A program made the translations under genes and the position numbers. The notes under the pieces are model-generated. The model searched no databases. It had not been told where the DNA came from and saw nothing but the letters and a program-made list of their open reading frames with translations. Positions 6,107 to 38,761 of a stretch of DNA of 64,000 nucleotides are shown one piece after another; within the stretch, counting starts at the first letter, position 1; each line of letters starts with the position of its first letter. The stretch comes from Nicotiana tabacum (taxonomy: Eukaryota; Streptophyta; Magnoliopsida; Solanales; Solanaceae): NCBI RefSeq assembly GCF_000715075.1, contig NC_134087.1, forward strand, positions 109,097,161-109,161,160, read 5' to 3'.

Positions 6107-6150
6107 GCCTATATATCCTTGGCTATAAAGGAATCAGGTCACTGTAGTTC
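6107..6150 (-). promoter_or_regulatory. Shared Ogre motif, copy 1 (A, next to polypurine tract)
   Basis: Reads GCCTATATATCC..GGAATCAGGTC..TGTAGTTC on the + strand. It is preceded by GACCGAA..GGAGGTT as in other copies. This is one of eight copies of a motif of unknown function; see findings. Confidence 0.7.
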
Positions 6151-6817
6151 TAGAAGTTTTGGTAGCTGGGACTACCAAAAAACTGTGATTTCACTGTTGT
6201 CGCTGTTTTTTTGTTTTGCTTACTGAGCTCTTTATTACATCGAGATAAAAGATAAAAGATAAACTAGCTAAACCTATCAACTATGAGTTACAAGATTCCT
6301 ATCTATAAACCTTTCAAAGCTTCATCTTAAGTCTTGGATGGTTCCTCTTGCAGACTTTGATCTGAATCATGATACTCATTAGCTGCAACTGTTAGTTCAT
6401 TCTTCTTCAGCTTTTCAGATCAAGGCAGGACATGCAAAGCTTGTGACTTCAATCATATCTTGAGAAATTCGCATCTTTTCTCCACTTTTACACTTAGAGT
6501 TCACTTCTTTTCTTGTTTTTTTATTCTTCTCTTTTGTCTGGATTAAGACTTCTTCTTTTGGTCGCCTCGAAACTTGTGCCTTATGAAAAAAACCTGTTTA
6601 GGCACCAAAACAAACAAACGAACTAAATTTTTCTGCCCCAATTTTCACAAGGGAAATTTTGTGAGTTATTGCAACAAAATCTACACTATTTCTTTATTGA
6701 AAGTAATTAAAATCAGGATTGTGTATCCCTGAGAAAAAGAGATTAGGGAGTGGAGACCCTATATCTAAAATGAAATCAAATAGGGATCGGAGGCCCTAAG
6801 TTGGGAAGATTACCAGG

Positions 6818-7554
6818 TTATGCTGGAAAAATGACCGGGTTATGCCAGAGAGGTCCTCGGGTTATGCCGGGAAAGGTTATCGGGTTATGCCAAAAAAGGT
6901 CCTCGGGTTATGCCGAGAAGGTCATTGGGTTATGCCAGAAAAGGTACTCGGGTTATGCTGGGAAAGTCATCGGGTTATACTGGAAAAGGTCCTCGGGTTA
7001 TGCCGGGGAGGTCCACGGGTTATGCCGGGAAAGGTCCTCGAGTTATGCTGGGAAAGTCATCGGGTTATGCCGGAAAAGGTCCACGGGTTATGCCGGGAAA
7101 GTCATCGGGTTATGCCAGAAAAGGTCTTCGGGTTATGATGGAAAAGTTCCTCGGGTTATGCCGGGGAGGTCCACAGGTTATGCTGGGAAAGTCATCGGGT
7201 TATGCTGGAAAAGGTCCTCAGGTTATGCCGGGGAGGTCCACGGGTTATGCCGGGAAAGTCATCGGGTTATGCCGGAAAAGGTCCTCGGGTTATGCCGGGG
7301 AGGTCATCAGGTTATGCTGGAAAAGGTCATCGGGTTATGCTGGAAAGTTCTTCGGGTTATGTCGGGGAAGTCATCGGGTTATGCCGGAAAGGTCCCCGAG
7401 TTATGCCGGGGAAGGTCATCGGGTTATGCCGGAAAGGTCCTTGGGTTATGCTGGGGAAGTCATCGGGTTATGCCGAAAAGGTCCTCGGGTTATGCCGGGG
7501 ATCAACTAGGGGGTGGGACCCTATGTTGGAAAGATTACCAGGTTATGCTGGCAT
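6818..7554 (+). repeat. 22-23-bp tandem array (about 30 units) in element A 3' UTR
   Basis: Units alternate between CGGGTTATGCCGGGAAAGTCAT (22 bp, two parts CGGGTTATGCC and GGGAAAGTCAT) and a 23-bp variant with GGAAAAGGTCCT. They repeat with few interruptions and then degrade beyond 7500. Several frames stay open across the array only because the repeat lacks stops, so the 255-residue and shorter overlapping ORFs are artefacts. Tandem arrays between pol and the 3' LTR are a known trait of Ogre/Tat elements and a source of satellite DNA. Confidence 0.9.
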
Positions 7555-8069
7555 CAGCTAGGGAGTGAGACCCTATGTTGGAAAAGACGTAGCTAGGGAT
7601 TGGAGACCATATACTACCATGAGTTTGAATTTTTCTTCTTCTTTCTTTTCATTTCTTTTTTTTTGTTTTATTTAAAGAAAATGAGTAAAAATGCAGGAAA
7701 CAATTTGGAGGAGACTTCACTTTTGGATTGATTACTGCTGCAAAGTTGTTCCTAGCCCTTGCGCAGTTTCTTTTTGGTGCACCTGCTTCTTGCAAGGCTG
7801 CTTTTGGATTGCACATGTTTCCTGTTTTCAAACAAAGAACAATTGTTAGTTTGAAACGGTGGTTGGTTTTGTGGCCTTGATTGTTTTAGTCAGTTGATCT
7901 TGGTCGGCTTCTTTGATGATACTTTCAACTGCAATTGGTTTTTTCTTGAAGACCGATTTCATTTATGGCCCTGGAGAAACTTTAGATTTCCAAACTTTAC
8001 TGTGACGGTTAGCCATGTGGGACTTAACCTTTGCAACTTTATTTTGCCTTTGTGGGCCTTTCCCTTCTG

Positions 8070-8074: not shown

Positions 8075-11000
8075 TGTCACACCTCCTTTTTACCTGCGCC
8101 CGCAGGGGTGTAAATGAAGTTTTTCCAATTAAAGGACAATCGAAACGGGATTTATTTATTTATTTTAGAGTCGCCACTTGGGAGATTTATGGTGTCCCAA
8201 GTCACCGGTTTAATCCCGAATCGAGGAGATGAATGACTTTCTATTACAGTCCGCGAACCAGAAATACGGATAAGGAATTCTGTTAACTCGGGAGAAGGTG
8301 TTAGGCATTCCCGAGTTCCGTGGTTCTAGCACGGTCGCTCAACTGTCATATTCGACTTATTTATCTGATTTTTATACATGTTGAACCTGTGTGCAAATTT
8401 TAAGTTTTTCCCGCTTTTATTGTTGTTATTTTAAGAGAGAATTGCAACGTCGTGAAAACACGTCTCGAACCACGTCACATCAATGCACCCATGGTTATTG
8501 ACACATTTCGACTCTGTTGAGATTTGGATTTGGGTCACATAAATGCGCACCCGATTTTAAGAAAGTAATTTATTAAAAGCGCACCTAAAGTGACTAGCGC
8601 GTTATTATTTTGAGGAAAGCCGTGAAATTTATTAGATGGTCCGTCCCGAAATATAAAGTATTTTAACGCAATATTTACTGAGGGCCCCGCAACTTATGCG
8701 TTTTATTTGGCGAGGCTCGTCTCATTTATTATTTACAGGCTAATCTTAAATGACTATTATTCTTCTATTTATTTGTCTTTGAAGAAATAAATAAAAGGGG
8801 CCCTAATTAGTTATTATTAGAAAATCCTATAATCTATCAATTGAAAATTAGTAGACCAAATGTCATTTCCACTTTAGGTCCAAAGAACCCAATCCATATG
8901 CTGGATCGAGTTTTGAATTACACGACTTGGTTATTTGATTCTGCTAACATTCATGAATAAGTTAACTGATTCAAATTCAAGTAGACTATTGATATTAACC
9001 ATTAACATGCAATTGCTTGTTCTTACGTCGAAGTAGTGAGCTTAACGAACAAAGGGGAGGACATCAATAACTAGCATGTTGGGCTGTTTTAAAAGCGCGT
9101 TTAACCTGAAATCGGAATAAGCACCACATGTTGACTTCTGAATTAATTGTAAGTCCAAACAATACTGATATTCGATTTTAACTCAATGTTAGCTGAAATC
9201 AGTAATAAACTATACTAAGTCTACAACTAATGAACGCGAATTAACGGTTTAAACAGTCCTAATTAGGTACAAACTTCACAGTCTACATTTCATTGAGTTA
9301 TAGATCAAATTGGACTATACAACTACTTATCATCTATATCTACTGAGCTACAGATACAACATCAAATAATTAAGGGCCCGAGCATTTCCATTTCATGTTT
9401 ACATCTCAAAGCTACATCAAATTGAGCTTAGTTGTGTACCTGGTATTGGATACAAAAGAAGAGGAGGATGAGAAACAGCAGATGCAGTAGCAACACAGCA
9501 ACAGCAATAAACAGCGACAGCCCAATAACAGATTAAAACCAGCAAAATCCCAGCAATATCCAATGGAACAGTAACGAGAAACCCACAACAAACTCAGAAA
9601 AACTAGTTGACAACCCTAGCAATACCAAACTGAACCAGAGAACTCCCAGAAACAAATAGAGGGCAGAAATCTACTCTGAAATGCAATGAAACAGTACTTT
9701 CTGATTCTCTATTCTTTAACTCTCAAAGAAGAACACTTTCAAGAAACTCTATTCTTTTAACTGATTTTCAGCAATCAAAGAAGACTAGACTTCCTTCCCC
9801 CAATATTGAACTCTTAGTATTGAAATCCAGCCTGTTTTCACTCTCTAACTAACTAAACTTTTGTGTTAAAATCCAGTCACTTTCACTCTCAAACTAAACT
9901 GACCTCTCCAACATTAAAAGTCAGCCTATTTTATATATTTCTAATTCTGATACAATCTATTCATCTGCATTAAAACCTTTAACTCTAAAATCTGTTCAAG
10001 CTAACAATTATCTAAAACTAATTCTGATTAACAGCTATAACCAATCCTCCTGATAACTGAATGACTAAGGTTGAATTCCAATTGAAACAAATGAACTGAA
10101 TTTAAATCAAAACCAAACTAACACAACACAGAACTCAACAGAATCATTAAAGCTGAAACTGAAACTGAATCAAAATCACATGAATGCAGGGATTAAACTA
10201 ACACAATTCTAGGTCAAACCTATACAAGAATGCAGGATCATTGTCAGTATATTGACAATGCCCTGAAGCTAATTGCCTAAAGATCAGTACATACAACATT
10301 CGACCTCAAACCATTTGATGAAAACTACTAGTAAAACTGAATTAATAAACGATAACTAATTAGCCGATTGCTTATAACAATTGACAACAGTCAATCAGAA
10401 ATAGATAATCAGGCAATTTACGCGGCATTGACAAAAATAGGGATTTATAATAAAAACTTAATTAATCGACGAAACTATTCGAATCGATTATACAGCCTAT
10501 AATATATACTTCGTAACGAACAGAAGTAAATTTGACCAAATAAAAGGTCTGAGTGAGAAGAACAGAACATTTGACAAAAATGAAAAAATTAATATAACAA
10601 CTCTAAACAAATAAACAGACATTTAAAACATCTAAAATAGAATAAAAGGAAAGAAAGAAAAATACCTTAAATGGAACAGAGAACAGACGGACTTGAAATT
10701 TTTAAGGTCAAATGGACCTTAATCGAGTGTTCTCAACTGAGAACACTTCGACTAAGGTCAGTTAAACACCCAAATTCCCTTCAATTTCGGACAGAAACCA
10801 GTTTTGGTTTTCTAGGGTTCTTACATTTCGATTTGGGGTTCGAGTGTTTATAGCTAGATTCAACCCAAACCAAAGGTGGTTTGGGCACGAGGGAGGTCGG
10901 GGTATGAATTTGGGCTTGGTTGGGGTAGGTTCAAGTTCTGCTCGAATCTTCAAATGGAGATTCGAGACGTTCCAAGTTGATTCGAGGCAAGTGGTTCATG

Positions 11001-12066
11001 GATTTGGATCGGGGGTGGTTGGGTGGTCATTTGGTGTTAATTTGGGGCTGAGGGGAAGTGGTGTCGCCACCAGAGGAAAGGGGGAATGGGTGGCGGCTAT
11101 TAGGGTTCCAGGTTTTCGATCTAATATTCGAGAAGATCGAGCAACATTCGAGGGAAACCGAGTGGGGATTTGGGACGGGGAGGTCGAGGGGAGTCTACGG
11201 TGTAAAAGTGGGAGGGATTGGGTGCCGAACACCGCCGTAGGCGATTTCCGGCTTGGTGGCGGGCAGTGGCGTTACGTTTTGTCTCTGAAGAAGACGAGAG
11301 ACGGGGGTGTGAGAATGAAATGGGGGTAAGAGGTTTGGGGGTTGTGGTTGTGGTATATTAAAATTGTTGATTTAATCAGGGCCGCTGGATGAATGAAATC
11401 CAACTGTCCTAATCGAGTCAATAATCAAAATGGGGTCGTTTCAACCACATGGGTGCTGGACCGGACCGGGTACAAGGTGGGTCGGGTCAGGGTTTGTGAA
11501 TGGGTTAACTTCTGGACCGTTTGATCAAGCTGATTCAACGGTCCAGATTGACATGACCAAAACGTCGTCGTTTGGTCGACGCTGGGGCAGACCGGGTTGG
11601 GGCGAATTTGATTTGGGCTTTTCAAATTAAACTGAATTTGGCCCAAAATTCTGATAAACTATTTATTATTCTTTTCCTTTTATTATTCTAGAATTCTAAT
11701 AAAATAAAAAAATCCAAACCTAAATTTAAACTTGATCAATTTATCCTAAAAATGTTAATTAACTCTAAGTAGTAATTATCACAGAATAATTAAATACCAA
11801 ATCACACAATTAAACACTAAAATGCAAAGTGCATTATTTTTTATGCTTTTCTTGTAAAATACAATTTTACTAAAAATAAAATCCTAAATTCAAAATGCTA
11901 TTTTTTTGTACTTTTCCATTAATTTACACAAATAAACGTGTACACACAAATGCAATCAATAGCTAAAAATATCACGAAAAATTCACAAAATTGCACACAA
12001 AAGAAAAAATATTTTATTTTGAATTTTTGGGAGTAATTTGTGTGAGGCAAAAATCACGTGCTCACA
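8075..12066 (-). repeat. Element B 3' LTR
   Basis: 3,992 bp, TGTCACACC..GCTCACA on the + strand. The partner LTR (29766-33263) is 3,498 bp; the difference is a block of about 500 bp (roughly 9510-10030) missing there. The first ~100 bases differ at about three positions, so B is younger than A. Contains AGAGTCGCCA at 8167-8176, GGTGTTAGGCA at 8297-8307 and a TATA-like stretch near 10500 in the element's sense. ORFs at 10.7-11.6 kb recur in the other LTR and have no recognisable product. Confidence 0.93.
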
Positions 12067-12081
12067 GCTGCCCCTCTTTTT
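12067..12081 (-). other. Polypurine tract of element B
   Basis: AAAAAGAGGGGCAGC on the minus strand, touching the 3' LTR. Its last 11 bases match the tract of A at 5971. Confidence 0.8.
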
Positions 12082-12209
12082 CCGGAAACACAAAGGGTTT
12101 TCGTGCAAAGATAAAGTGAGGGGATACGAGCGATTTTTTTTTGCCCGTTTGAGTACTCCGTGTGAAGCATTTTTTGAAAGAGTTGACCGAACTTCTGCTT
12201 CGAAGGTTT

Positions 12210-12252
12210 CCTACATATCCCTGGCTAAAAGGGAATCAGGTCAATGTAGTTC
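12210..12252 (-). promoter_or_regulatory. Shared Ogre motif, copy 2 (B, next to polypurine tract)
   Basis: CCTACATATCC..GGAATCAGGTC..ATGTAGTTC, with GACCGAA..CGAAGG before it. The arms CTACAT and ATGTAG are perfectly complementary. It lies at the same place as copy 1 in element A. Confidence 0.75.
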
Positions 12253-12502
12253 GGAAAGTTTTGGTGGCTGGGACTACCATGGGACTGTAATTTTGCTGCT
12301 ACTGCTGTTGTATGCTGCTGCCACTGCTTACCGACCTCCTTATTACACCATTGGTAAAAGAAAAAAAGAAGCTAGACTAAACTAAGGATTACAAAATCTT
12401 ATCTATCTTCGAACTTGCTATGGTCGCCTTACTTTCTTGTTGGCTTGTGTTTCCTCCGCTGTTTCTTTCTTTGACTTGACTTGTGAGTGTATTCCTTTGT
12501 TC

Positions 12503-13318
12503 TACAGGCGGGCTCCTGACTTTAATTTCAACTTAAATATAACAACCGCCATTCTCCAGGCGGGCTCCTGACTCCTTCAACTTCAAATTTAACAACTTCC
12601 ATTCTACAGGCGGGCTCCTGACTTCTTCAACTTTTAAAATAAACAACCTCCGTTCTACAGGCGGGCTCCTAACTCCAACTTAAAATTTAACAACCTCCAA
12701 TTCTCCAGGCGGGCTCCTGACTCCAACTTAAAATTTAACAACCTCAATTCTACAAGCGGGCTCCTGACTCCAACTTAAAATTTAACAACCTCCATTCTCC
12801 AGGCGGGCTCCTGACTCCAACTTAAAATTTAACAACCTTTATTCTACAGGCGGGCTCCTGACTCCAACTTAAAATTTAACAACCTCCATTCTACAGGTGG
12901 GCTCTTGACTTCTTCAACTTTTAAAATAAACAACCTCCGTTCAACAGGCGGGCTCCTGACTTCTTCAACTTTTAAAATAAACAACCTTCGTTCTACAGGC
13001 GGGCTCCTGACTTCTTCAACTTTTAAAATAAACAACCTCCGTTCTACAAGCGGGCTCCTGACTCCAACTTAAAACATAACAACCTCCGTTTTACAGGCGG
13101 GCTCCCGACTTCTTCAACTTTTAAAATAAACAACCTCCGTTCTACAGGCGGGCTCCTGACTTCTTCGACTTAAAACATAACAACCTCCGTTCTACAGGCG
13201 GGCTCCTGAGTTCATCAACTTAAAATTATAACAACCTCCATTCTCTAGGCGGACTCCTGACTTCTTCGACTTAAAATTATAACAACCTCCGTTCTACAGG
13301 CGGGCTCCTAACTTCTCC
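12503..13318 (+). repeat. Minisatellite of about 50 bp, 17 units, in element B 3' UTR
   Basis: Seventeen copies of a core like TCTACAGGCGGGCTCCTGAC, separated by TTCTTCAACTTTTAAAATAA or CCAACTTAAAATTTAACAACCTCC-type spacers of 27-32 bp in two main versions. Higher-order grouping is visible: blocks of the CCAACTT version at 12670-12900 and of the TTCTTCAACTT version at 12900-13170. Not CRISPR: the spacers are themselves repeated and the host is a plant. Confidence 0.93.
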
Positions 13319-14710: not shown

Positions 14711-15046
14711 GTGTTACCGATAAGACTTTATCTGCTGGGGATTCTTTTGGCTATCAATTCTTCCCAGCTTATGATCCTCTTTCTGTTGAGGATCAGAGTG
14801 TTATTCTCGACTTCCATTTGCATGACTTGGCACTTCTCGGATACTGATCGGGAGGTCTTTTTTGGGCATCAATATGGGTTTTTGTGTATGGAAAAAAGGG
14901 GTATCAAAAGAGGTTCAAAAATAATTTTGATGGGTAAAACATTACAACTCTTGGAATCAAACTTTCTTCCCGCAACTTCTGCCCCAGTTTCGTGCTTGGG
15001 GATTTTATTTTTATTTGTTTGTTACACTATGACCGAGCCGTGAGGC

Positions 15047-15087
15047 GCCTACATATCCTCTTTGAGGAATCAGGTCGAACGTAGTTC
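15047..15087 (-). promoter_or_regulatory. Shared Ogre motif, copy 3 (B, after pol)
   Basis: GCCTACATATCC..GAGGAATCAGGTC..CGTAGTTC with GACCGAGCCGTGAGG before it. It lies about 250 bp beyond the pol stop. Confidence 0.75.
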
Positions 15088-15678: not shown

Positions 15679-16809
15679 CTAAGCGATAATCCGGAGGGAC
15701 GGAATTTCTACTTCTGCCGGTATCATTGCTTCAGTTTCGTATACCAACAAATAAGGAGTTGCACCTACTGAAGTGCGGACAGTAGTGCGATATCCCAACA
15801 ATGCAAATGGCAACTTTTCGTGCCATTGCCTGGACCCTTCTACCATCTTCCTCAATATCTTCTTTATGTTCTTGTTGGCTGCCTCAACCGCGCCATTCAC
15901 CTTGGGACGATACGGGGTGGAATTGCGGTGTGTAATTTTGAACTGTTGACATACTTCTTTCATCAAACTGCTATTGAGATTAGCACCATTGTCCGTGATG
16001 ATCACTTTGGGGATCCCAAATCTACAGATGATATAGGAATGAATGAAATCCACCACTGCCTTCTTTGTTACCGACTTGAAAGTTTTAGCCTCAACCCACT
16101 TGGTGAAACAATCGATGGTGACCAGAATGAACCTATGACCGTTGGAAGCTGCCAGCTCAATCGGTCCAATGACATCCATGCCCCATGCAACAAATGGCCA
16201 TGGTGCTGACATTGTATGCAATTCTGTTGGCGGAGAATGAATCAAATCTCCGTGTATCTGACACTGATGGCATTTTCGCACGAAATTGATACAATCATTC
16301 TCCATAGTGAGCCAATAATACCCTGCTCGAAGAATATTCTTCGTCAATACATATCCGCTTATATGTGGCCCACAAACTCCCGTATGTACCTCTGTCATCA
16401 GTATAGTGGCTTGACCAGCATTTATACATCTCAGCAATCTCAAATCTGGTGTTCTTTTGTATAACACTCCTCCACTGAGGAAAAATCCATTTGCCAATCG
16501 CCGAATGGCTCTCTTTTGATCTCCGGTGGCCTGCTCTGGGTATATCCCCATCCTGAGGTATTCCTTGACATCATAAAACCATGGCTCGCCATCCATTTCT
16601 TCCTCTATCATGTTGCAATAAGCATGCTGATCACGAACCTGAATATGCAACGGGTCAACATGAATTTTGTCTAGGTGGTGCAACATCGATGCTAAAGTGG
16701 CCAAAGCATCGGCAACCTCATTGTGAACTCCTGGGATGTGTCTGAACTCCACTGATCGAAATCGCTTGCTCAGATCGTGCAAACATTGTCGATATGGTAT
16801 AAGCTTCAA
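15679..16809 (-). pseudogene. Element B integrase (with end of second RNase H)
   Basis: The longest open stretch of B pol, 376 residues. The first ~45 residues end the second RNase H (NEVADALA, with the last catalytic Asp). Then come the HHCC zinc-binding motif (VHTGVCGPH..CHQC, about residues 145-190) and the catalytic core, with MDVIGP, ITDNG and NGAVEAANK giving the D, D and E residues; the last two are spaced D-35-E. All catalytic residues are present. It inserts the DNA copy into the genome in the nucleus. The stop at 15679 cuts off the GPY/F module, so this is a near-intact domain of a dead polyprotein. Confidence 0.92.
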
Positions 16810-17058
16810 ATCTCGTGTTTCCCATTCACCCTAGATTTGATGCACTAGGAGGTCCGAGTCTCCCAAGACCAAGACGTCCTGGACATCCATGTCTGCAGCT
16901 AACCGTAAGCCCAAAATGCATGCCTCATATTCAGCCATGTTATTGGTACAATAGAAACGTATCTGTGTCATAACAGGATAATGATGTCCTGTTTCAGAAA
17001 TAAGTACCGCTCCTATTCCAACTCCTTTCGCATTTGTGGCTCCATCAAAGAAGAGCTT
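16810..17058 (-). pseudogene. Element B second (Tat-type) RNase H
   Basis: The frame between the stops at 17059-17061 and 16831-16833 reads LFFDGA, NNMAEYEAC, LGDSDLL; with NEVADALA downstream, all four acidic catalytic positions (D-E-D-D) are present. This is the extra RNase H of the Tat/Ogre lineage lying between the normal RNase H and integrase. Both flanking stops are TAG. By comparison with the family (from memory) one replaces Trp TGG and one replaces Gln CAG. Confidence 0.85.
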
Positions 17059-17650
17059 CTAACCTGGTTCCTCAGATAATTCCAACTCATCTATATGCAT
17101 CACTTCTTCATCAGGAAAATACATCCTCAATGGCTCGTATTCTTCATCAACAGGATTCTCAGCCAAGTGATCGGCCAATGCTTGGGCTTTCATGGCCGTC
17201 CTCGTTACATAGACGATGTCGAACTCCGTGAGTAATATTTGCCATTTCGCTAACCTCCATGTGGGCATAGGCTTCTGGAAAATATACTTCAGTGGATCCA
17301 AGCGTGAAATGAGATAAGTAGTATATGATGACAGATAATGTTTAAACATCTGTGCCACCCAAGTTAGGGTGCAACACGTTTTCTCAAGTTGAGTGTACTT
17401 AACCTCATAGACCGCAAACTTCTTACTGAGATAATAGATGACTTGCTCCTTCCTTCCTGTGATATCATGTTGCCCCAGTACGCAACCAAATGAATTCTCC
17501 AGTACCGTTAGATAGAGAATCAACGGTCTTCCTGGTTCAGGTGAGACCAACACAGGTGGGTTTGATAGATACCCCTTGATTTGGTCGAAGGCTTCCTGAC
17601 ATTCTGCCGTCCATTCTACCGCAGCATCTTTCTTTAGTAGCCTAAAATGG
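17059..17650 (-). pseudogene. Element B RNase H (first) and connection
   Basis: Open from about 17640 to a TAG at 17059-17061. It contains the RT-linked RNase H signatures LYLTVLENSFGCVLGQHD, YYLSKKF, EKTCCTLTWV and LTEFDIVYV, followed by ADHLAEN. It degrades the RNA strand during reverse transcription. Near 17641-17646 the reading shifts: the run CCATTTTAGG appears to lack one T, so the phase changes between RT and RNase H. Confidence 0.88.
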
Positions 17651-18810
17651 GTTCACAAGTTTTCGTGAGTTGAGCGATGAACCTGCTGATATAATTCAAC
17701 CTTCCCAACAGACTCATTACTTCTGTTTTGTTCTTCGGCGGTGGCAATTCCTGGATGGATTTGATTTTTTACGGGTCCAACTCAATGCCTCGCCGACTGA
17801 CGATGAATCCCAACAGCTTTCCAGATGGAACACCAAATGCACATTTGGCCGGGTTGAGCTTAATGTCGTATCTTCGAAGTCTTTGGAAAAACTTCCTTAG
17901 GTCTGCCACGTGGTCTTCCTGACGCTTAGATTTTATGATCACATCATCTACGTACACCTCAATCTCTTTGTGTATCATGTCATGAAACATCGTAGTCATT
18001 GCTCTCATGTACATTGCCCCAGCGTTCTTCAAGCCAAAAGGCATTACCTAGTAGCAATAAGTCCCCCACGGCGTAATGAATGCCGTCTTTTTCGCATCTT
18101 CTTCATTCATCAGAATCTGATGATACCCAGCATAGCAATCTACAAAAGACCTGATCTCACGTCCGGCACAATTATCGATCAAGATATGGATGTTGGGTAA
18201 TGGAAAGTTGTCTTTGGGGCTTTCCCTGTTCAAATTGCGGTAATCGACACACACTCTGATCTTCCCATCTTTCTTCGGCACTGGCACCACATTAGCCAAC
18301 CAATCAGGATATCGAGTGACCAAAATAACCTTTGCCTACAGCTGCTTGGTTACTTCTTCTTTAATTTTCACACTCATATTTGTCTTGAACTTCCTCAATT
18401 TCTGCTTGATAGGAGGGCACGCCGGGTTAGTGGGCAATTTGTAAACCACTAGATCGGTGCTTAAGCCCGGCATGTCATGGTACGACCATACAAAAATATC
18501 TTTGAATTCAATAAGTGCTTTGATTAGTTCCTCCCTGATGTTCGGCTCAATGTGGATGCTTATTTTGGTTTCCCTGACATCGTCTGCATCCCCTAAATTG
18601 ACAGCTTCAGTGTCATTCAGATTGGGCTTGGGTTTCTCTTCGAACTGGCTTAATTCTCTGTTTATCTCTTCAAAGGCTTCATCCTCATCGTATTTCGATT
18701 TATCATCATAATCGACCTCTTGTACAATTAGTTCAGAATCAGATTGATTTTTTAGACTAGGTTGAAGATCCGTTATGCATACCATGTCATTAGAACCGGT
18801 ATAAAGAGAA
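17650..18810 (-). pseudogene. Element B reverse transcriptase
   Basis: Exon 2 of B pol begins after the intron acceptor at 18811. The N-terminal region is acidic (YDEDEAFEEINREL). RT motifs follow in order: WLANVVPVPKKDGKIRVCVD, FPLPNIHILID, SFVDCYAGYHQI, TAFITPWGTYCY, MPFGLKNAG, and the YVDD catalytic box at 17943-17954. Stops interrupt it at 18336-18338 (TAG, between TKQL and AKV), 18048-18050 (TAG) and 17769-17771 (TAA). The active site itself is intact. Reads made by RT would act in cytoplasmic virus-like particles. It is inactive as a polyprotein because of the stops. Confidence 0.92.
17943..17954 (-). other. RT catalytic box YVDD
   Basis: Codons for Tyr-Val-Asp-Asp in the reverse transcriptase of element B; the two aspartates bind the catalytic metals. 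Confidence 0.9.
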
Positions 18811-19445: not shown

Positions 19446-20209
19446 CACAAATGCAGTGTTTTCAGTTTTCACAATTGAAATTCTAAAGTGTTTGCACTTT
19501 GCACAACTGCACAATGTGCACAAGTTTGAAAAAACTGAAAAGCCTGCACAGTGCACACTGAAAACACTGAAAACTTTGCACAAATTTGGAAGAGGAAGCA
19601 CAACTGCACATGGCTCATGGCTGAAAACCTGAAACAAGAATAACATATTATTCTGCAGACAACAACTTCACAATCTGGCAACTGCAGATGCAAACTTGCA
19701 CGCCAGATCTGGCAATCAACTTAATAGTTAACACTTAACACTCACAGTGCAATAAAAACACAGTCCAAACTTAAGCACATGGCAACTGAACACTTAAACT
19801 GTTAAACAGTTAAACTACAGATGCTAACTTGCACAACTGCAGTCTGCAGATGCTAAACTCATTAACCCAGTGCAATAAAAACACAGTCCAACAAATGCAG
19901 TGTTTGCACAATCGAAATTCTAAAGTGTTTGCACTTTGCACAATGTGCACAACTGCACATGGCTCATGGCTGAAAGCCTGAAACAAGAATAACATATTAT
20001 TCTGCAGACAACAACTTCACAATCTGGCAACTGCAGATGCAAACTTGCACGCCAGATCTGGCAATCAACTTAATAGTTAACACTTAACACTCACAGTGCA
20101 ATAAAAACACAGTCCAAACTTAAACACATGGCAGCTGAACACTTAAACTATTAAACAGTTAAACTGCAGATGCTAACTTGCACAACTGCAGTCTGCAGAT
20201 GCTAAACTG
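19446..20209 (+). repeat. Direct duplication in the hAT 3' region (offset about 349 bp)
   Basis: About 260 bp at 19601-19860 recur at 19950-20209 with few differences. A shorter upstream piece (19446-19530, ATTCTAAAGTGTTTGCACTTTGCA) recurs at 19889-19945 with a deletion. Rich in TGCACA, CTGCAGA and TTAACA words. Likely tandem duplication in the element's non-coding part. Confidence 0.8.
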
Positions 20210-20582: not shown

Positions 20583-21554
20583 TTAAAGCTTACCAAGCTC
20601 GAGTTCCTCAAGATACTTCAAGTCTTCTTCAACACTAATAGGATTCTTCTCTTCTCTAATCCAATCTTGAACACAAATAAGAGCTTGCACACATTTAGTA
20701 GTCAATGAACTCCTAAATGAATCAAGAATAAGGCCACCAGTGCTAAACGTGCATTCCGATGCCACACTAGAAATTGGAATTGCCAACAGATCACGAGCCA
20801 ACTCCGAAAGAATAGGAAATCTAGGAGCATGTGTTTTCCACCAACTCAAGATATCAAATTCTTCACTAAAAGGCTCTTGTTCTTCACTAATGTATTTATC
20901 CAACTCCGATTTAGCACCCCCACTTCCATTGACTTCCTTTTGTTTCTTTAAGCTAAGCTTAGTCCTAATTTTTGATGCACTTATAACACTCCCACTAGGT
21001 GTATTAGATGTGTTGTTAGATGAAGTAGAACTAGATGGAGATTGAGGACCAGATTCGGTTGAATACTTTTTTAGATACTCTCCAAACAAAGAATTCATAT
21101 AAGCATACACCTCAACATTTATTTTCTTCCCTTTTTCCTCCCCAAAAAGTTCTTCAAGTGCTCCCTCAACATATTCAAATTTGTTACGTGGATCCAAGAC
21201 GGAAGCAATAAAAATCATTTTATTCATCTTTTCAGGCTCACCCCAATACTTCTTGAACTTTTCTTGCATTTGCTCAACCATTTTTCTCAAATGCCTATCC
21301 TCACTAGCTAAACACATTTTCAAATGACAATAAAGTTCAGATACATCCTCAAAATGAGAATTACAAGTGACATAACGTGAACCTGAAACTTTTTTAGTTA
21401 GCTCGTGAAATCTTGCAAGAAACTCTATCACATTCCTCACATTCACCCAATCATCAGATTCAAGAGGACCTGCATTACCACCATTTTCACAAAGATGAGA
21501 ACATTGATATGCTATTGTTAGTTGCTCATATGAATATGATATGGTAAAGTTCAA
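20583..21554 (-). pseudogene. hAT transposase, C-terminal half with hATC dimerisation domain
   Basis: 323 open residues resembling Ac/RICESLEEPER-type hAT transposases: WVNVRNVIEFLARFHELT, FKKYWGEPEKMN, FIASVLDPRNKF, then a Ser/Asn-rich linker (about 170-195) and the hATC dimerisation domain (about 218-310) with WWKTHAPRFPILSELARDLL, IPISSVASECTFSTGG and an end like LICVQDWI. The BED zinc finger and the first catalytic acidic residues are missing. The natural stop is present at 20583. Sequence to the right (21555-22200) shows no further transposase I can recognise, so the N-terminal half appears deleted. Acts in the nucleus on hAT ends; this copy should be inactive. Confidence 0.88.
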
Positions 21555-22330: not shown

Positions 22331-22507
22331 CCAAATTTTGGTATTTTGGTTTACCGAAATAATTCAATTATAAAACCGAAAACCGAACCAAAATACCGAA
22401 ATTCAAGTACCGAATTAGACCGAAATACCGAAAAAAATGAAACCAAAATACCAAATTAATTTGGTTCGGTTCGGAATTCGGTTTTTCGGATTTTATGCCC
22501 ACCCCTA

Positions 22508-22515
22508 CTAACAAC
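22508..22515. repeat. hAT target-site duplication, right copy (CTAACAAC)
   Basis: Matches 19181-19188. Confidence 0.93.
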
Positions 22516-25807: not shown

Positions 25808-26140
25808 GCTTTTCGGTATGGGCCCTTTGGATCTTGTTTGGTAATGGTAATCTGCCAGAACGTTCTAACAAACTAACTGGTTTGAAATCTCTGGAAAACA
25901 ACAAAATTGTTAGCGTTAGAGTTTAACACATATTGCAATTGCACGTTGGGGGATGTAATGTTCCTAGGCAGTTTAACCATTTCTAACATGTCTTTGTTCT
26001 GTATGCATCATCCCGGCTTATTTTATTTGTGCCCTTTAGGTGTTTCTGAAACTTTCCTTTATTTGCTTTCTCTTTCTCTCTTTTCCTTTCTTTCTTTTAT
26101 TCACTTTTTCTTTTAGCGGTGGTCGAATCTTATGTGGATT

Positions 26141-26184
26141 GCCTACGTATCATGTCCCCGCATAAATCAGACCATGCGTAGTTC
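26141..26184 (-). promoter_or_regulatory. Shared Ogre motif, copy 4 (B, between ORF1 and gag)
   Basis: GCCTACGTATC..AAATCAGACC..GCGTAGTTC on the + strand. It is about 330 bp upstream of the gag start and 180 bp after the ORF1 stop. Confidence 0.8.
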
Positions 26185-26366: not shown

Positions 26367-28421
26367 CTAGGAGTACATTAACGCTTTGAATTTTGGTGCC
26401 CACGGGGCATCGTTCGGCCTTTCCGCGGGCTTTGGTGCAAGGCCCCTTTGCAAGCTTTTAAATTCTTCCATGATTCGGTGGACGTAACCCATGACTGAAG
26501 CAAAAAGGGTATCACGGGGTATTTCCTCACATGCTAGGCACCTCATGGTGATGTAATGCCCAATCTCCTCAATTCTACCCCTGATTTTATCCCTTTCCAT
26601 GAACAGTTGCTCTATTCGTTGATTCTTTACTCCCAGTACTTGAGCGTTGTCAGTGAGTTGATCTTGGAACCTCTCCATTTGTTCTTCCAATCGGGCCATT
26701 AAATCATAGCAGCGCTTCCTGTCCGTTCTAGCATCTCGGGCTTGTTTAAAGACCCGATCTTTGAGAGTGGAATTTGTTTCTCTTAATATTTCAATGCTCG
26801 CTTCATAATCCCTTCTCACTTGCCGTAAGTGCTTTGCTCGCGCTGTACCTTTTGCCCATCTGGCCTGAATTCTTGTTATGCAGGCCTCTGATCTTGCCAA
26901 ACCCTCTCGGCTTTCAATGACTTGGTTTCTCAACCCAGTTATCAGACCTTCGTAGGACCGGCTCCTTTGTTGGTTGTTGGCATCCATTCTGACTCGTTGG
27001 ATTTTGGCTTTCAAGGCCTTATTTGCTTGAGTCAATCTGTTCTTTTTTCCTGGGTCAGCATCGACTTGCACGCTATTTTCATATTTCAGATCCTCAATTT
27101 GCTGTTTCAACTTGCCAATTTCAACCTGATAGCCTTCTTCTCTTGCCAGCCAGCCCCATTGTTCTTGCGAGTCATTCGTGAATTGCTGGACATGGGCTCT
27201 TTTAGCAGGCCTTTGACGAATCCGGAACCTTTTCCCAAACCATGCATCATACTTCGGGTCCACCTCGCCTTTGGCTAAATCTCGCACCATAGTTTTGGGC
27301 TCAAGGAATCTGCATTCATGCCATAATTTGCGAATTGTATCTTCCGGGACTGTGGCATTCGGTCTTAGCTCAATGGTATGCTTGCTCAAATCTTCATCAT
27401 GAGGGATAATCTGGAATCTTCCCAATTGACGCAATACCCGATGGGGAGCGTATGGTTGGATACTACGGACACCCATCAGAAGAACATAACATTCTTTGGC
27501 CGACATGTATATTGCTCCAATAGCGGGCAACCACCCAAACGCCCATTCAATTTGGTCCGCCGTTAGTGATATCAGTCGTATAAACCAATCTCCAGTACCC
27601 TAGGGGAACGGAACACCCGTTACCCGCTTCTCAAACATTTCAATGCAATTTAAACCAGTGAGCCCGAAGTTCATATACCCCACTCGATGGCAGAGATATT
27701 CCTATATCTACAACTGAAGTAATAGATTGCAACCTTGGAAAAAACTTCCTCCCTCCTTACACGCGGTCAATGCTCGGTATATTTCTGATAAGATCAGGGG
27801 AACTATAGTGCTGTCAGCCCTTTTCATTGCGACATCAACCATCCCCACGAGACCTATCTCTATTTTCTTGTCGTCTCGTGGGCAAACCATGATTCCCAAG
27901 AATGTCGTTTTGAATGCCAAGGTTCGTCTTGCTTCCCATTTACCTCTGTTTCCGGCGTGAGTCAGTCCCAAATTTGGCTCGTCAAAACCCCGCGGATTAC
28001 CATAACGCTGATATAAGAACTGAAGAGCGCAACATCCTTTTGATAAATCATTATTCTGCATAGTCCGGCTGATATTTAACAAGTCCAGAAATCGATGTGG
28101 CGATACCGGCCTTGGTGACAACAAATACTGACTTCTCAGATTCCCATTCATACTCGCATAACCTGCTACTTCCTCCAGTGTGGGTGTAAGCTCAAAATTC
28201 GCAAAGCAAAATACATTTCAGGTCGGGTCCCAAAATGGTATCAAAGCCTCGATGACATCCGTCCTTGCCTTGACATTTAGTAGACTGATGAGACCCCCCA
28301 AGACTCTGACCACTATTTCTTTGCTGCTTTTTCCCAAATCGTCCCACCACATATGGAGCTGGAGAGGGACCTCGCTAAAGTCGGTGAAGGGTTTGTTTTC
28401 ACTTGTGCTCATCCTGCACAT
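26367..28421 (-). pseudogene. Element B ORF1, upstream of gag
   Basis: Begins at 28421 (MSTSENKPFTDF) and ends at 26367. The N-terminal ~400 residues (LHMWWDDLG, RVLGGLISLLNVKARTDVIEALIPFWDP, ALQFLYQRYG, ADSTIVPLILSEIYRALT, WFIRLISL) resemble the conserved domain of ORF1 in Ogre-like elements, related to the plant mobile domain group (DUF7745 in my memory). The last ~250 residues are a long coiled coil (LKQQIEDLKYEN..MERDKIRGRIEEI). Function unknown. Stops at 28218-28220 (TGA), about 27707-27716 (two) and about 27600 break it. The 3' part, 26367-27530, is open for 387 residues. Confidence 0.85.
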
Positions 28422-28905: not shown

Positions 28906-28958
28906 TGACATTTTCTAGGTATTTTTGCAAAAAGGGGAAGTTGGACCCGATGAGGGTT

Positions 28959-29002
28959 GCCTACGTATCTCACATCCGGTGAGAATCAAACCGACGTAGT
29001 TC
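28959..29002 (-). promoter_or_regulatory. Shared Ogre motif, copy 5 (B leader, before ORF1)
   Basis: GCCTACGTATC..GGTGAGAATCAAACC..ACGTAGTTC, preceded by GACCCGATGAGG. Arms CTACGT and ACGTAG are fully complementary. The closest relative is copy 8 at the same place in element A. Confidence 0.8.
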
Positions 29003-29761: not shown

Positions 29762-29765
29762 GAGC

Positions 29766-32700
29766 TGTCACACCTCCTTTTTACCTGCGCCCGCAGGGGC
29801 GTAAAGGAAGTTTTTCCAATTAAAGGACAATCGAAACGGGATTTGTTTATTTATTTTAGAGTCGCCACTTGGGAGATTTATGGTGTCCCAAGTCACCGGT
29901 TTAATCCCGAATCGAGGAGAAGAATGACTCTGTATTACAGTCTGCGAACCAGAAATCCGGATAAGGAATTCTGTTAACCCGGGAGAAGGTGTTAGGCATT
30001 CCTGAGTTCCGTGGTTCTAGCACGGTCGCTCAACTGTCATATTCGACTTATTTATCTGATTTTTATACATGTTGAACCAGTGTGCAAATTTTAACTCTTT
30101 CCCGCTTTTATTGTTGTTATTGTAAGAGAGAATTGCAACGTCGTGAAAACACGTCTCGAACCACGTCACATCAATGCACCCGTGGTTATTGATACATTTC
30201 GACTCTGTTGAGATTTGGATTTGGGTAACATAAATGTGCACCCGAGTTTAAGAAAGTAATTTATTAAAAGCGCACCTAAAGTGACTAGCGTGTTATTATT
30301 TTGAGGAAAGCCGTGAAATTCATTAGACGGTCCGTCCCGAAATCTAAAGTATTTTAACGCAATATTTACTGAGGGCCCCACAACTTATGCGTTTTATTTG
30401 GCGAGGCTCGTCTCATTTATTATTTGCAGGCTAATCTTAAAATGACTATTATTCTTCTATTTATTGTCTCTAAAAAAATAAATAAAAGGGGACCCTAATT
30501 AGTTATTATTAGAAAATCCTATAGTCTATCAATTGAAAATTAGTAGACCAAATGCCATTTCAACTTTAGGTCCAAAGAACCCAATCCATATGCTGGATCG
30601 AGTTTTGAACTACACGACTTGGTTATTTGATTCTGCTAACATTCATGAATAAGTTAACTGATTCAAATTCAAGTAGACTATTGATATTAACCATTAACAT
30701 GCAATTACTTTTTCCTACGTCGAAGTAGTGAGCTTAACGAACAAAGGAGAGGACATCAATAACTAGCATGTTGAGTTGTTTTAAAAGCGCGTTTAACCTG
30801 AAATCGGAATAAGCACCACATGTTGACTTCTGAATTAATTGTAAGTCCAAACAATACTGATATTCGATTTTAACTCAATGTTAGCTGAAATCAGTAATAA
30901 ACTATACTAAGTCTACAACTAATGAACGCGAATTAACGGTTTAAACAGTCCTAATTAGGTACAAACTTCACAGTCTACATTTCATTGAGTTATAGATCAA
31001 ATTGGACTATACAACTACTTATCATCTATATCTACTGAGCTACAGATACAACATCAAATAATTAAGGGCCCGAGCATTTCCATTTCATGTTTACATCTCA
31101 AAGCTACATCAAATTGAGCTTAGTTGTGTACCTTGTATTGGAAACAAAAGAAGAGGAAGATGAGAAACAGCAGATGCAGTAGCAACACAGCAACAACAAC
31201 AAACAGCTATAACCAATCCTCCTGACAACTGAATGACTAAGGTTGAATTCCAATTGAAACAAATGAACTGAATTTAAATCAAAACCAAACTAACACAACA
31301 CAGAACTCAACAGAATCATTAAAGCTGAAGCTGAAACTGAATCAAAATCACATGAATGCAGGGATTAAACTAACACAATTCTAGGTCAAACCTATACAAG
31401 AATGCAGGATCATTGTCAGTATATTGACAATGCCCTGAAGCTAATTGCCTAAAGATCAGTACATACAACATTCGACCTCAAACCATTTGACGAAAACTAC
31501 TAGTAAAACTGAATTAATCGACGATAACTAATTAACCAATTGCCTATAACAATTGACAACAATCAATCAAAATAGATAATCAGGCAATTTACGGGGCATT
31601 GACAAAAACAGGGATTTATAATAAAAACTTAATTAATCGATGAAACTATTCGAATCGATTATACAGCCTATAATATATACTCAGCAACGAACAGAAGTAA
31701 ATTTGACCAAATAAAAGGTCTGAGTGAGAAGAACAGAACATTTGACAAAAATGAAAAAATTAATATAACAACTCTAAACAAATAAACAGACATTTAAAAT
31801 ATCAAAAATAGAATAAAAGGAAAGAAAGAAAAATACCTTAAATGGAACATAGAACAGACGGACTTGAATAGACTCGGACTTGAACTTTTTGAGGTCAAAC
31901 GGACCTTAATCGAGTGTTCTCAACTGAGAACACTTCGACTAAGGTTAGTTAAACACCCAAATTCCCTTCAATTTCGGACAGAAACCAGTTTTGGTTTTCT
32001 AGGGTTCTTACGTTTCGATTTGGGGTTCGAGTGTTTCTAGCTAGATTCGACCCAAACCAAAGGTGGTTTGGGCACGAGGGAGGTCAGGGGGTGCCAGGGT
32101 ATGAATTTAGGCTTGGTTGGGGTAGGTTCGAGTTCTGCTCGAATCTTCAAATGTAGATTCGAGAAGTTCCAAGTTGATTCGAGGCAAGTGGTTCATGGAA
32201 ATGGATCGGGGGTGGTTTGGTGGTCATTTGGTGTTAATTTGGGGCTGAGGGGAAGTGGTGCCGCCACCAGAGGAAAGGGGGAAAGGGTGGCGGCTATTAG
32301 GGTTCCAGGTTTTCGATCTAATATTCGAGAAGATAGAGAAACATTCGAGGGAAACGGAGTGGGGATTCGGGACGGGGAGGTCGAGGGGAGTCTACGGTGT
32401 AAAAGTGGGAGGGATTGGGCGCCGAACACCGCCGTAGGCGATTTCCGTCTTGGTGGCGGCGGTGGCGTTACATTTAGTCTCTGAAGAAGACGAGAGACGG
32501 GGAGTGTGAGAATGAAATGGGGGTAAGAGGTTTGGGGGGGGGTTGTGGTATATTAAAAATGTTGATTTAATCAGGGCCGCTGGATGAATGAAATCCAACG
32601 GTCCTAATCGAGTCAATAATCAAAACGGGGTCGTTTCAACCACATGGGTGTTGGACCGGACCGGGTACAAGGTAGGTCGGGTCAGGGTTTGTGAATGGGT

Positions 32701-33263
32701 TAAATTCTGGACCGTTTGATCAAGTTGATTCAACGGTCCAAATTGACATGACCAAAACGTCGTCATTTGGTCGACGTTGGGGTGGACCGGGTTGGGGCGA
32801 ATTTGATTTGGGCTTTTCAATTTAAACTGAATTTGGCCCAAAATTCTGATAAACTATTTATTATTCTTTTCCTTTTATTATTCTAGAATTCTAATAAAAT
32901 AAAAAAAAAATCCAAACCTAAATTTAAACTTGATCAATTTATCCTAAAAATGTTAATTAACTCTAAGTAGTAATTATCACGGAATAATTAAATACCAAAT
33001 CACACAATTAAACACTAAAATGCAAAGTGCATTATTTTTTATGCTTTTCTTGTAAAATATAATTTTACTAAAAATAAAATCCTAAATTCAAAATGCTATA
33101 TTTTTGTACTTTTCCATTAATTTACACAAATAAACGTGTACACACAAATGCAATCAATAGCTGAAATATCACAAAAAATTCACAAAATTGTACATAAAAG
33201 AAAAACTATTTTATTTTGAATTTTTGGGAGTAATTTGTGTGAGGCAAAAATCACGTGTTCACA
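29766..33263 (-). repeat. Element B 5' LTR
   Basis: 3,498 bp, partner of 8075-12066. Carries a deletion of about 500 bp between ACAGC-type words (junction near 31205) relative to its partner. Contains AGAGTCGCCA at 29858-29867 and GGTGTTAGGCA at 29988-29998. Followed by the target copy ACTTG. It would hold the promoter for B transcription toward lower coordinates. Confidence 0.93.
31667..31680 (-). promoter_or_regulatory. Possible TATA box in element B 5' LTR
   Basis: GTATATATTATAGG in the element's sense, about 1.6 kb into the LTR, with the shared U5-like blocks downstream. This is a position and composition argument only. Confidence 0.3.
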
Positions 33264-33268
33264 ACTTG
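33264..33268. repeat. Target-site duplication of element B, right copy (ACTTG)
   Basis: Matches 8070-8074. Confidence 0.9.
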
Positions 33269-34660
33269 TTGCTCTTTTTTTTTTTAACTTCGGAGCATTG
33301 GGAAACTTTTGGCTCCTCAAACTTTGGCACATCGGCTAGTCGCGTGGGACTTAACCTTTTCCAGCTTTGTTTCACCTTCGTAGGCCATTCATTTCTGGAT
33401 TCTTTCCTCCAACTTCAATTTCAGAGCATTTGGGGTATACATTGGCTTTTAAAACCTTTGCCGAGACGGTCAGCCGCGTGGGACTCAACTCTTTCAACTT
33501 CATTTCGCCCTTATAAGCACTTCAATTTGATTTCTTTCTTTCGAGAGCTTTCAATTTTAAACCATCGGTCGCCATGGCCAGTCGAGGTCGACTTGATGCC
33601 CCTGACGAGGCTGGGTGCCTTCTTGCATATTATCTTGTATCAAATGAGAACCCTGTAAATCAGTCTTGCCATCCTTTCTTTGTCTTAGTTTCGGAACAGA
33701 GTTAGACCGAAAGGGATTCAAAGAAAACAAACAATGGAATGGAGAATGAGTTTAAACAAGATGTGTCCCTTTCGAGGAAAGGAATGAAGGACTTATCTGG
33801 AGTACATGCGGACTTCAATGAACATGACATGCCTTTTGGACTGGATACCTGATCCGTGCAAACCGTCCGACTCTCAGAAATTCATCACAACTTTTGCCTC
33901 GAAATAGAGAAACCTTGCCCAGGACTGCGTCAATGTCAGTGACTGAAGATCCTTTTTTCCGATTAATGGTGCCTTTTGCGGGTTTTCACGAGCTGACCTC
34001 TCTCATTTCTCTTCTCACTATCGCCTTGTAGTGCTCTTGTGAGTTTTCACTAACAAGACTCTCTCAATTTAGTTTCTCTACTTACTGTCGCCTCATGGTG
34101 CCCGTGCGGGTTTTCACCAATAAGACTATCTCATTTTGTTTCTCTCATTTTGAATGCATCGGATCCAAGAAGTTGTATTCTCCAATCCTTGAACATTCTC
34201 ACCGATTGATCGAAAGGACTTGAAAGGATTCGGGTAAAAATGATTTGGACTGAATTACAAACATTCAGGTAGTATCATCGTTGTACTATTATAACATCTG
34301 CCCCAGTTTCACTTTTAGAAAATTTGGATTTTTATTTTGGTGTGACTGAATCCGAGAGAGAGGCTGCTACGTATCCTTTCGGAATAAAGTCAAATGTAGT
34401 TCAGGAAACTTTTTTTTTTACTTTCTTTTTTTGTTTTTGTTGTTTCTTTCTTTTTCCTTTCCTTTTCCTCTCTTTTTTTTTCATTTCATTTTCTTTGGTT
34501 TTCTTATTTTTTTCATTTTAATTTTCCTCTCTTTTCATTTTTTTATATCATTTCATTCTTTTTCAATTTTTTTTCAATAGCACTTTCAGGTTCCAAATAG
34601 GGTAATCAAAGAAAAGTAATCGGCTCAAAGGGTTTGCAAAGGGTTGATAGTATTTGGGTA
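33269..34660 (-). other. Element A 3' untranslated region, pol-proximal part
   Basis: Continuation of A after the B insertion. Two units with GGCTAGTCGCGTGGGACTTAACC (split as GGCTAGTCGCG / TGGGACTTAACC) near 33331 and 33465, about 134 bp apart, match the unit at 8004. The 65-bp repeat shared with B is at 33970-34145. Shared motif copy 6 is at 34364-34402. A T-rich run covers 34408-34580. No recognisable protein. Confidence 0.7.
34364..34402 (-). promoter_or_regulatory. Shared Ogre motif, copy 6 (A, after pol)
   Basis: CTGCTACGTATCC..GGAATAAAGTC..TGTAGTTC. The most degraded copy, at the same place as copy 3 in B. Confidence 0.65.
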
Positions 34661-34862: not shown

Positions 34863-34899
34863 TTTTCCAACTCATTGTTTTATTTCCTTAAACTTATCT

Positions 34900-37121: not shown

Positions 37122-37199
37122 AGGAACCTTTCCTTTGGATCTTGTAAGTAAGGATGGGAAGCCAGATTACCAACAAAACCAACCACCTAAACAGAACCT

Positions 37200-38717
37200 G
37201 GCTTAATTTGCACACCTCACAAACTTGTTAGTTTTGAGACGCTTAACAGATAGGAAATCGCATATTGGGATGCAATGCACTTAGACAGTTAAACGTTTCT
37301 ACTATGTGTTTGAACGAGTTGCATGTTTCATCTTGGCCTTAATTAACCCTCTTTTTTCAATCTGCACGTCTTTTCTTCATTTTTGCTTCTCTCAAATCGC
37401 TCTTGATTTTTGTTTTGTTTCTGTCGCTCTTCTATTTTGGCACTCTCTTTTTCTCTTTTTTTTGTTTTTTTGTTTTTAGTCACTCTTTTATTTTATGTCA
37501 CTCCTTTTTTTCACTCTTTTCTTTATTTTCTACTCAACTTTTTTTTAAGTTTATTTTTCACTCAATTTATTTATGGCTATGATCGATTCCGATGGGGATT
37601 ACCTACGTATCATTACGTCGCATGAATTAGATCTTGCGTAGTTCGGGATGATCGAGAATGGAGTAAACAAACTAACTTTTTTTTTTTACTTTTTATAAAA
37701 ACTCAGACCATGAAAGCTTTAGGACGGAAGAAAAACATATTTTTTTTTGAATTTTTGTTTTCTTTTGTTTTTTGGAATTTTCAAAAGAAATGCTTTAAAA
37801 GAAGAAAGGAAATATTTTTGTTAGATTTTTGATTGTTGACTTTTTTATATTTTTTTGAAAGAAAGACTTCTAAAAATTCCTTTTCTTTTGATTTGAACTT
37901 TGGGAATTTCAAAAGTAAAAAGAAATTATTACTTTTTTGAATGTTTATTTGTTTAATCTTTTTCTAAAGAAGAAAGGAAATATTTTTGGCTTTTGGATGT
38001 TGCCTCTTAATTTTCGAAAGAGGGGCTTTTAAGAAAATATTTTAGATTTCTGAGTTTTTTTTTTGTTTTTTAAAATTTACAAAAGTACATCTAAAGAAAA
38101 GCAAAAATATTTTTGGACTTCAATTTTTTTTAAATTTTTTTTTTGAAAGAAAGACTTTTAAACAAGGAAGAGAATTTTTTTTTTTTTTTGAATTTTTGGG
38201 AAAAGACTTCTTAAAAAGGTAGAAAAATATATTTATTTATTTTTGAATTTTGATTTGACTTGTGGATTTTCGAAAGAAGGAATTTTAAGAAAACATTTCA
38301 GATTTCTGAGTTTCTCTTCTTACTTTTTTTGTTTTTTTAATTTACGAAAGTACTTTTAAAGAAAAGCGAAAATATTTTTGGACTTTTATTTCTCAAATTT
38401 TTATGGACATTTACAAAAGAAAGACTTTTAAAGGAGAAAAGAATATTTTTGGATTTTTGTTTCTATTTTTTTTGTTGGAAAAATACTTCCAAAATGAAGG
38501 AAACCCGTATTTTGGATTTTGGATTTTTTTTTTATTTTGTTTTTTTTATTATTTTATTTTTTCATATGAAAGACTTCAGAAAGAAGGAAACTACTTTTTT
38601 GAATTTAAAAACTACTTGTTTTTCTTCTTAATTTTCCAAGGAAATATTTCTACAGAAGGAACAAAGGAAAAATATTTTTGAATTTTTTTAAAATTAGGGT
38701 CGGAACCGATGAGGTTT
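37200..38717 (-). other. Element A T-rich leader with degenerate repeats, no ORF1
   Basis: Very T-rich. Repeats of about 110-130 bp built from GAAAGACTTTTAAA, GGAAATATTTTTGG and similar words run from about 37700 to 38690. Motif copies 7 (37601) and 8 (38718) border it. In element B the same interval between the motifs holds ORF1, which is missing here. Phe/Leu-rich ORFs come from composition. Confidence 0.65.
37601..37644 (-). promoter_or_regulatory. Shared Ogre motif, copy 7 (A, before gag)
   Basis: ACCTACGTATC..GAATTAGATC..GCGTAGTTC; matches copy 4 of B (both have a GTATCAT..CGCAT core). It lies about 480 bp upstream of gag. Confidence 0.8.
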
Positions 38718-38761
38718 GCCTACGTATCTTACATCCGGTGAGAATTAGACCCATGTAGTTC
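38718..38761 (-). promoter_or_regulatory. Shared Ogre motif, copy 8 (A leader)
   Basis: GCCTACGTATC..GGTGAGAATTAGACC..TGTAGTTC, preceded by AACCGATGAGG; counterpart of copy 5 in B. Confidence 0.8.

Follow-up and report, generated by a model that had tools for sequence, protein, structure and literature searches.

The window considered here, a 64-kb stretch of Nicotiana tabacum DNA, contains a large Ogre-like long terminal repeat (LTR) element, B, which sits nested inside a second LTR element, A, and both carry copies of a short motif that is the subject of this analysis. All eight copies listed in an earlier note on this DNA are present where it placed them. A covariance model (R1; 69 positions with 14 nested pairs, built from 24 copies with the window's eight among the training rows) recovers exactly eight in the window, at 40.5-75.6 bits and all on the minus strand, with the next match in the 64 kb at 10.0 bits. 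A three-block scan finds 0-3 mismatches in each of the eight copies, and its shuffled control gave 5 matches in five shuffled windows with up to 5 mismatches (<=5) allowed. The minus strand is the one on which both elements are read, which makes the motif sense RNA in A and B, and the plus-strand pattern of the earlier note has been corrected to a unit that reads GAACTACG...GATACGTAGG followed by about 20 nt. The copies lie at four matching places in each element, as had been proposed, and are listed below as sites 1 to 4 with the arms of the pseudoknot that is described in the next section:

28934..29002, minus strand: site 1 of B, class 1b, between the primer binding site (PBS) leader and open reading frame 1 (ORF1); arms GGTT (28989-28992) and AACT (28939-28942)
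26116..26184, minus strand: site 2 of B, after ORF1 and before gag; arms GGTC/GACC
15026..15087, minus strand: site 3 of B, after the integrase; arms GACC/GGTC
12180..12252, minus strand: site 4 of B, near the polypurine tract and the 3' LTR; arms GACC/GGTC
38693..38761, minus strand: site 1 of A, class 1a; arms GGTC/GACC
37576..37644, minus strand: site 2 of A; arms GATC/GATC
34339..34402, minus strand: site 3 of A, short form 3'; arms GACT/AGTC
6079..6150, minus strand: site 4 of A, near the 3' LTR; arms GACC/GGTC

The copy at 38718 (variant 1a) and that at 28959 (variant 1b) are sisters, and the copy at 34364 (site 3 of A) is the most decayed of the eight. In the window A has only 1a and B only 1b; the A-type loci L019 and L022 hold both, so that the number of copies per element varies around four. 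An origin of the motif before A and B split, as suggested earlier, is counted as supported. Directly upstream of site 4 on the minus strand stands a small extra hairpin, GGTAGTCCCAGCTACC, at 6151-6200 in A (-13.5 kcal/mol) and 12253-12300 in B (-3.8 kcal/mol).

Fold and covariation of the unit

Twenty-four copies of all classes were aligned by MAFFT without structural guidance, and RNAalifold, run on this alignment, returned an unforeseen helix in which a loop tetramer pairs with the tetramer just after the second hairpin. Upstream tetramers of the forms GGUC, GGUU, GACC, GACU, GAUC and GGCC occur in this position. The fold therefore consists of an outer stem (CUACG/CGUAG), an inner hairpin, a second hairpin and a crossing tetramer helix that makes it a pseudoknot; RNAalifold permits no crossing pairs, and the outer stem is then omitted from its output. 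The structured RNA proposed in the earlier note is thereby retained, with its topology corrected to a pseudoknot and its covarying pairs reassigned. The stretch GACCGAA..GAGGTT, which had been placed before the motif, is indeed present and belongs to the unit itself, where it forms the second hairpin and the downstream pseudoknot arm. A closing stem CCGAA/TTCGG was also considered and rejected, as it is absent at site 3 and competes with the second hairpin.

Across the 24 copies the pseudoknot is paired in 100% of its cells (96/96), the outer stem in 97.5%, the inner stem in 92.5% and the second hairpin in 84.2%. The structure as a whole is paired in 93.2% of 455 cells, against 80.7% in shuffles and at most 37.9% when partners are slid, and 78 cells are changed on both sides compared to 26 in shuffles. 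Much the same is seen in 55 other distinct copies (2 of 57 held-out copies were dropped on listing distinct sequences), with 98.9% of cells paired in the outer stem, 97.7% in the pseudoknot, 96.0% in the inner stem and 85.6% in the second hairpin. Here the whole structure is paired in 94.4% of 1,038 cells (shuffles 83.8%, slid partners at most 37.9%), double-changed cells number 161 versus 55 in shuffles, and all four pseudoknot pairs show double changes. In alignments A3 and A4 the second hairpin of class 3 is shifted by one column, which lowers its counts.

The pseudoknot occurs as 15 distinct helices, 6 of them fully Watson-Crick. The inner-stem arms (22 distinct arm pairs) form 2.59 of 3 pairs in their native combination, a value that 0 of 10,000 permutations reached, and 1.25 when swapped between classes, and one inner-stem pair is seen as CG, AU, UA and GC. 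A sliding-arm permutation of the pseudoknot, a loose test with little power, gave 54 of 57 copies fully paired with a permuted mean of 48.6 and 2 of 2,000 permutations as high. The downstream pseudoknot arm and the interiors of both hairpins are free of any demand made by the search patterns. The paired change in the arms of copy 2 (CTACAT/ATGTAG), which had been put forward as covariation, is confounded, as CpG decay of both arms gives the same outcome; convincing covariation is found in the inner hairpin, the second hairpin and the pseudoknot. In the sense strand G.U outnumbers A.C by 16 to 3 in the pseudoknot and by 12 to 7 in the inner stem. That the motif is a structured RNA is thus close to certain, and the sense strand is favoured, not proven, as the structured one.

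Distribution, boundaries and conservation in the genome

The genome searched was that of the window itself (3.996 Gb), so that all counts come from one genome and related copies. Three strict patterns gave 14,835, 2,749 and 9,968 exact matches, of which the first two sets overlap and are not additive, and which leave out sites 1b and 4; the reversed pattern gave 0 in each case. Similar sequence words may also occur in other dicots. As a sample of loci, the first 20 matches of contig 1 were each taken with a 10-kb stretch around them, with L005-L012 (overlapping L013-L020) and L001-L004 (chance matches) excluded from the counts. More than one copy is present in 15 of the 20 loci, and in 15 of these 15 the copies lie on one strand and in the order site 1, 2, 3, 4, where individual sites may be absent. 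Several frames of B are found in 8 of these 10-kb stretches, a gag-like frame only in 5 and none in 7.

A coding element that begins at 1764070 of C1 (L021 and L035) illustrates the arrangement, with site 1, ORF1, site 2, the gag-like and G-patch matches, RNase H, integrase, site 3 and site 4 in this order. By contrast, L029 and L034 together hold sites 1, 1, 2, 3 and 4 in order without any match to a B protein between them, and their longest sense frames are of 125 codons (a repeat) and 119 codons. The same site order occurs on the opposite strand in L030, whose site 4 lies in L034, and L014 retains a frame of 238 codons and a gag-like match. Site 1 is doubled at a distance of about 220 bp in L029 (3742 and 3971) and in L030 (6022 and 6243). 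In L027 a 737-codon frame (2564-4774, plus strand) is open from site 1 through ORF1, so that the motif is readable in frame.

An independently inserted repeat can be rejected as the identity of the motif, in line with the reading in the earlier note, given that in 15 of 15 multi-copy loci the copies agree in strand and order and that conservation ends about 20 nt after the core. An origin from a tRNA or a short interspersed nuclear element is likewise rejected, as ARAGORN finds no tRNA in the window. Viral contigs gave 4 matches, all without the second arm, and 0 to the two-arm pattern, and the genomes of prokaryote species gave 0 matches to the motif. Protein-level searches for read-through of the motif returned one match (P0001) and five matches (P0002-P0006), all on short JGI or ENA contigs, which are no evidence from a distant species because their flanks resemble this genome's own copies.

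The edges of the unit can be read from the fall in conservation. Gapless identity in classes 1b and 3 starts at 0.91-0.98 and has dropped to about 0.66 by roughly 20 nt past the core, and directly before GAA it is 0.53-0.65; in class 2 identity declines more gently, and in class 4 it is lower throughout. As identity falls at both edges, the unit starts with GAAC, closes with the downstream arm and measures about 62 nt instead of the 44 bp originally given.

A sample blind to the motif was drawn with an integrase query, for which 107 places were listed, 20 of them being taken on 14 contigs with 1.2 kb downstream of each. The motif is present in sense orientation in 20 of 20, 557-610 nt downstream, in what is a single subfamily that is 91-93% like B. 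When these loci are aligned with B and L035, none of the 22 windows is as little divergent as the 62-nt one that holds the motif. In five diverse rows its divergence is 5.5% compared to 11-70% elsewhere, with 49% and 70% in the neighbouring windows; over all 22 rows it is 3.5% compared to 3.7-55.5%, the closest other window being nearly equal. Only 3 of the 107 listed integrase matches have an internal stop, and for many of them the surrounding frame is open over about 1,183 codons, for which reason the family looks recently active.

In its interior the gene-less A resembles B only in the PBS leader, at sites 1-4, in a repeat near 14.5 kb and in a 133-bp stretch at 25.1 kb. In this comparison a 65-bp island of 87.7% identity, which coincides with the structured unit, is formed by site 1. 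For 6 of 7 targets with site 2, similarity to B stops exactly at 26184, the first base of the site, and continues past its 3' side, as if modules had been joined at this point.

Possible roles of the motif

Little seems to be known of the way in which the LTR retrotransposons of plants label their RNA for packaging or export. The available text of a 2025 review treats RNA pools for packaging in plants without a cis-acting RNA signal (PMC12786077), and that of two papers on the Ogre lineage mentions no conserved untranslated RNA structure of the kind seen here (PMC6317226, PMC3305785). In agreement with the earlier note, a full-text literature search found no published description of the motif; subscription papers are thinly covered by it, and the original Ogre papers could hold one. 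With some ten thousand matches in one genome, several in each element, and its retention in gene-less derivatives, the compact pseudoknot offers a well-delimited RNA for tests, a tag that links non-autonomous elements with their helpers, and a candidate for a new RNA family.

As gene-less copies need no translation, a signal retained in them should act in cis on their own RNA, and the cis roles that should fit such copies are packaging, export, stability or reverse transcription. We consider it probable that the motif is a cis-acting replication signal. The reading that we prefer, with a probability of roughly 0.6, is that of a cis-acting pseudoknotted element on the sense genomic RNA of the Ogre-like family and its gene-less derivatives. 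A trans-acting factor would bind the long transcript at several of its sites and thereby select this RNA for replication. The binder would most likely be Gag or another protein of the element that packages the RNA into virus-like particles, and the gene-less derivatives would retain the sites because their RNA has to be recognised by these same proteins. Packaging in particular is put forward tentatively, at somewhat less than even odds. It is favoured because site 1 follows the PBS leader and site 4 is near the 3' LTR, and because it is these sites that autonomous and gene-less types have in common. Among the roles that the earlier note had listed packaging is thus the favoured one, while internal initiation is disfavoured, as the sites are retained in gene-less copies and two of them are located downstream of pol.

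Upstream arms are of the GGUC type in sites 1-2 and of the complementary GACC type in sites 3-4, which makes a 5'-3' swapping of partners that closes the RNA into a loop conceivable. A more far-reaching and doubtful proposal is that a pseudoknot with the topology of the hepatitis delta virus (HDV) ribozyme is used as a spaced array along giant retrotransposon RNAs, representing a new RNA family; a protein of the element would read the array as a multi-point address that serves packaging or the architecture of the genome. The gene-less derivatives would then parasitise this system by keeping the array alone.

Several points weigh against a cis-acting pseudoknotted element of this kind. Retroviral packaging signals, to which the motif is similar in that site 1 follows the PBS leader and gene-less derivatives keep the sites, are usually found at the 5' end, whereas the motif sites extend to the polypurine tract. 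The block scan did not find site 1 in 3 of 8 coding loci (L013, L018, L026), so that the sites are not all essential. Pairs with a double change are not clearly more numerous than in shuffles (126 and 32 of 500 as high), nor are pair types (197 and 237 of 500 as high), and the cell counts overstate independent events because the copies are related. Furthermore, the blocks used to find copies demand the outer stem, the upstream pseudoknot arm and UGAUUC, so that conservation at these places is partly selected. The preference for one strand is clear only in the pseudoknot; in the second hairpin G.U to A.C stands at 39 to 41, with many A.C cells contributed by its outermost pair, which is missing in class 1b.

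The best of the alternatives, unlikely as it is, is an element for nuclear export or RNA stability that recruits host factors for the export or decay resistance of unspliced or gene-less RNA. Mouse MusD RNA uses a transport element (MTE) that is likewise a cis-acting pseudoknotted RNA of an LTR retrotransposon, according to the available text of PMC12786077, and Ogre RNA is partly spliced according to that of PMC6317226; the gene-less derivatives would need export as well. However, Rfam gave no match that would liken the sequence of the motif to an export element already known, and a single site would suffice for export, yet about four are kept. The tobacco motif thus differs from the MTE and other export elements in its roughly four short copies along the RNA, and an export role would be assigned here by analogy.

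A translation element that serves ORF1 and gag by internal initiation or re-initiation is improbable. Site 1 precedes ORF1, and in the coding element on C1 site 2 follows about 200 nt after the ORF1 match, as such an element might; but the gag-like matches there begin only about 1.6 kb downstream of site 2, pol precedes sites 3 and 4, and the non-coding derivatives keep their sites. Quite improbable, too, is an element that works at the level of DNA, either as a protein binding site (ACGT core) or as a recombination point that joins modules. Modules do change at the sites, as at 26184 in B, and homologous recombination could use the motif as a by-product. Against this stand the single orientation in all 15 multi-copy loci and the fact that letters vary while pairing stays across a crossing helix, which would be needless in duplex DNA.

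That the motif has no function, with shared descent and CpG decay mimicking covariation, is very improbable. CpG transitions do account for the changes in the outer stem (CUACA, UGUAG) and for some of the inner-stem variation at site 2 (ACG/CGU to AUG/CAU), but the four forms of one inner pair are not explained in this way, the double changes in the pseudoknot include non-CpG ones, for example with a C-to-U change of the upstream arm, and the motif is the most conserved window of its surroundings. An HDV-type self-cleaving ribozyme or its relic is hardly credible: the strand order P1, P2, P3, P1', P4, P2' matches the helix order of HDV-like folds, but the outer stem has a mere 5 bp, a single base lies between the second hairpin and the downstream arm at the catalytic position, four unpaired bases precede the inner stem, the inner loop is not conserved, and cleavage at the several copies would cut the genomic RNA. 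Rfam gave 0 matches at the gathering score in the window and no ribozyme among 5 chance matches at E<=10 for site 1. The idea of a splice site, with a CTRAT branch point plus TACGTAG|G, was set aside.

Host elements and neighbouring features

The other features of A and B are as follows:

29766..33279, minus strand: 5' LTR of B; its 3' LTR lies at 8075-12081, and matching parts are 95.0 and 96.8% identical
39554..42394, minus strand: 5' LTR of A; its 3' LTR lies at 3125-5966, 92.5% identical
26367..28217, minus strand: ORF1 of B in two frames, of DUF7745 / plant-mobile-domain type, below the cut-off
22368-23330, minus strand: frame of B with a G-patch domain
15679..17652, minus strand: RNase H and integrase frames of B
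12499..13316, minus strand: tandem repeats of about 50 bp between sites 3 and 4 of B

The G-patch is an RNA-binding domain known from betaretroviral proteases, and its frame in B is a candidate partner of the motif. In the related locus L027 the plant mobile domain of ORF1 exceeds both cut-offs. Ogre elements are also characterised by an archaeal-type RNase H that lies between RH and INT and by a spliced intron that separates gag-pro from pol; a test for the archaeal-type RNase H matched only the end of RVT_3, directly before the integrase domains, at 19.4 bits against a cut-off of 21.6. The plant mobile domain in ORF1, the order of RNase H and integrase, the large size and the tandem repeats between pol and the 3' LTR (in B at 12499-13316) are shared with the Ogre lineage of Tat Ty3/gypsy elements as characterised in the available text of PMC6317226 and PMC3305785, the former of which reports an ORF1 of this type in 57% of Ogre elements.

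A hAT transposase frame is inserted in B (20583-21557, minus strand, and 19598-20208), and two direct repeats of 262 bp with 98% identity lie beside it. The stretch 46238-51829 (minus strand) holds frames like those of a long interspersed nuclear element, with pieces of endonuclease, reverse transcriptase and RNase H, and is without the motif by the covariance model. Two further direct repeats, 55873-56455 and 63416-64000, are 92.5% identical and are possibly the LTRs of another element that is cut by the end of the window.

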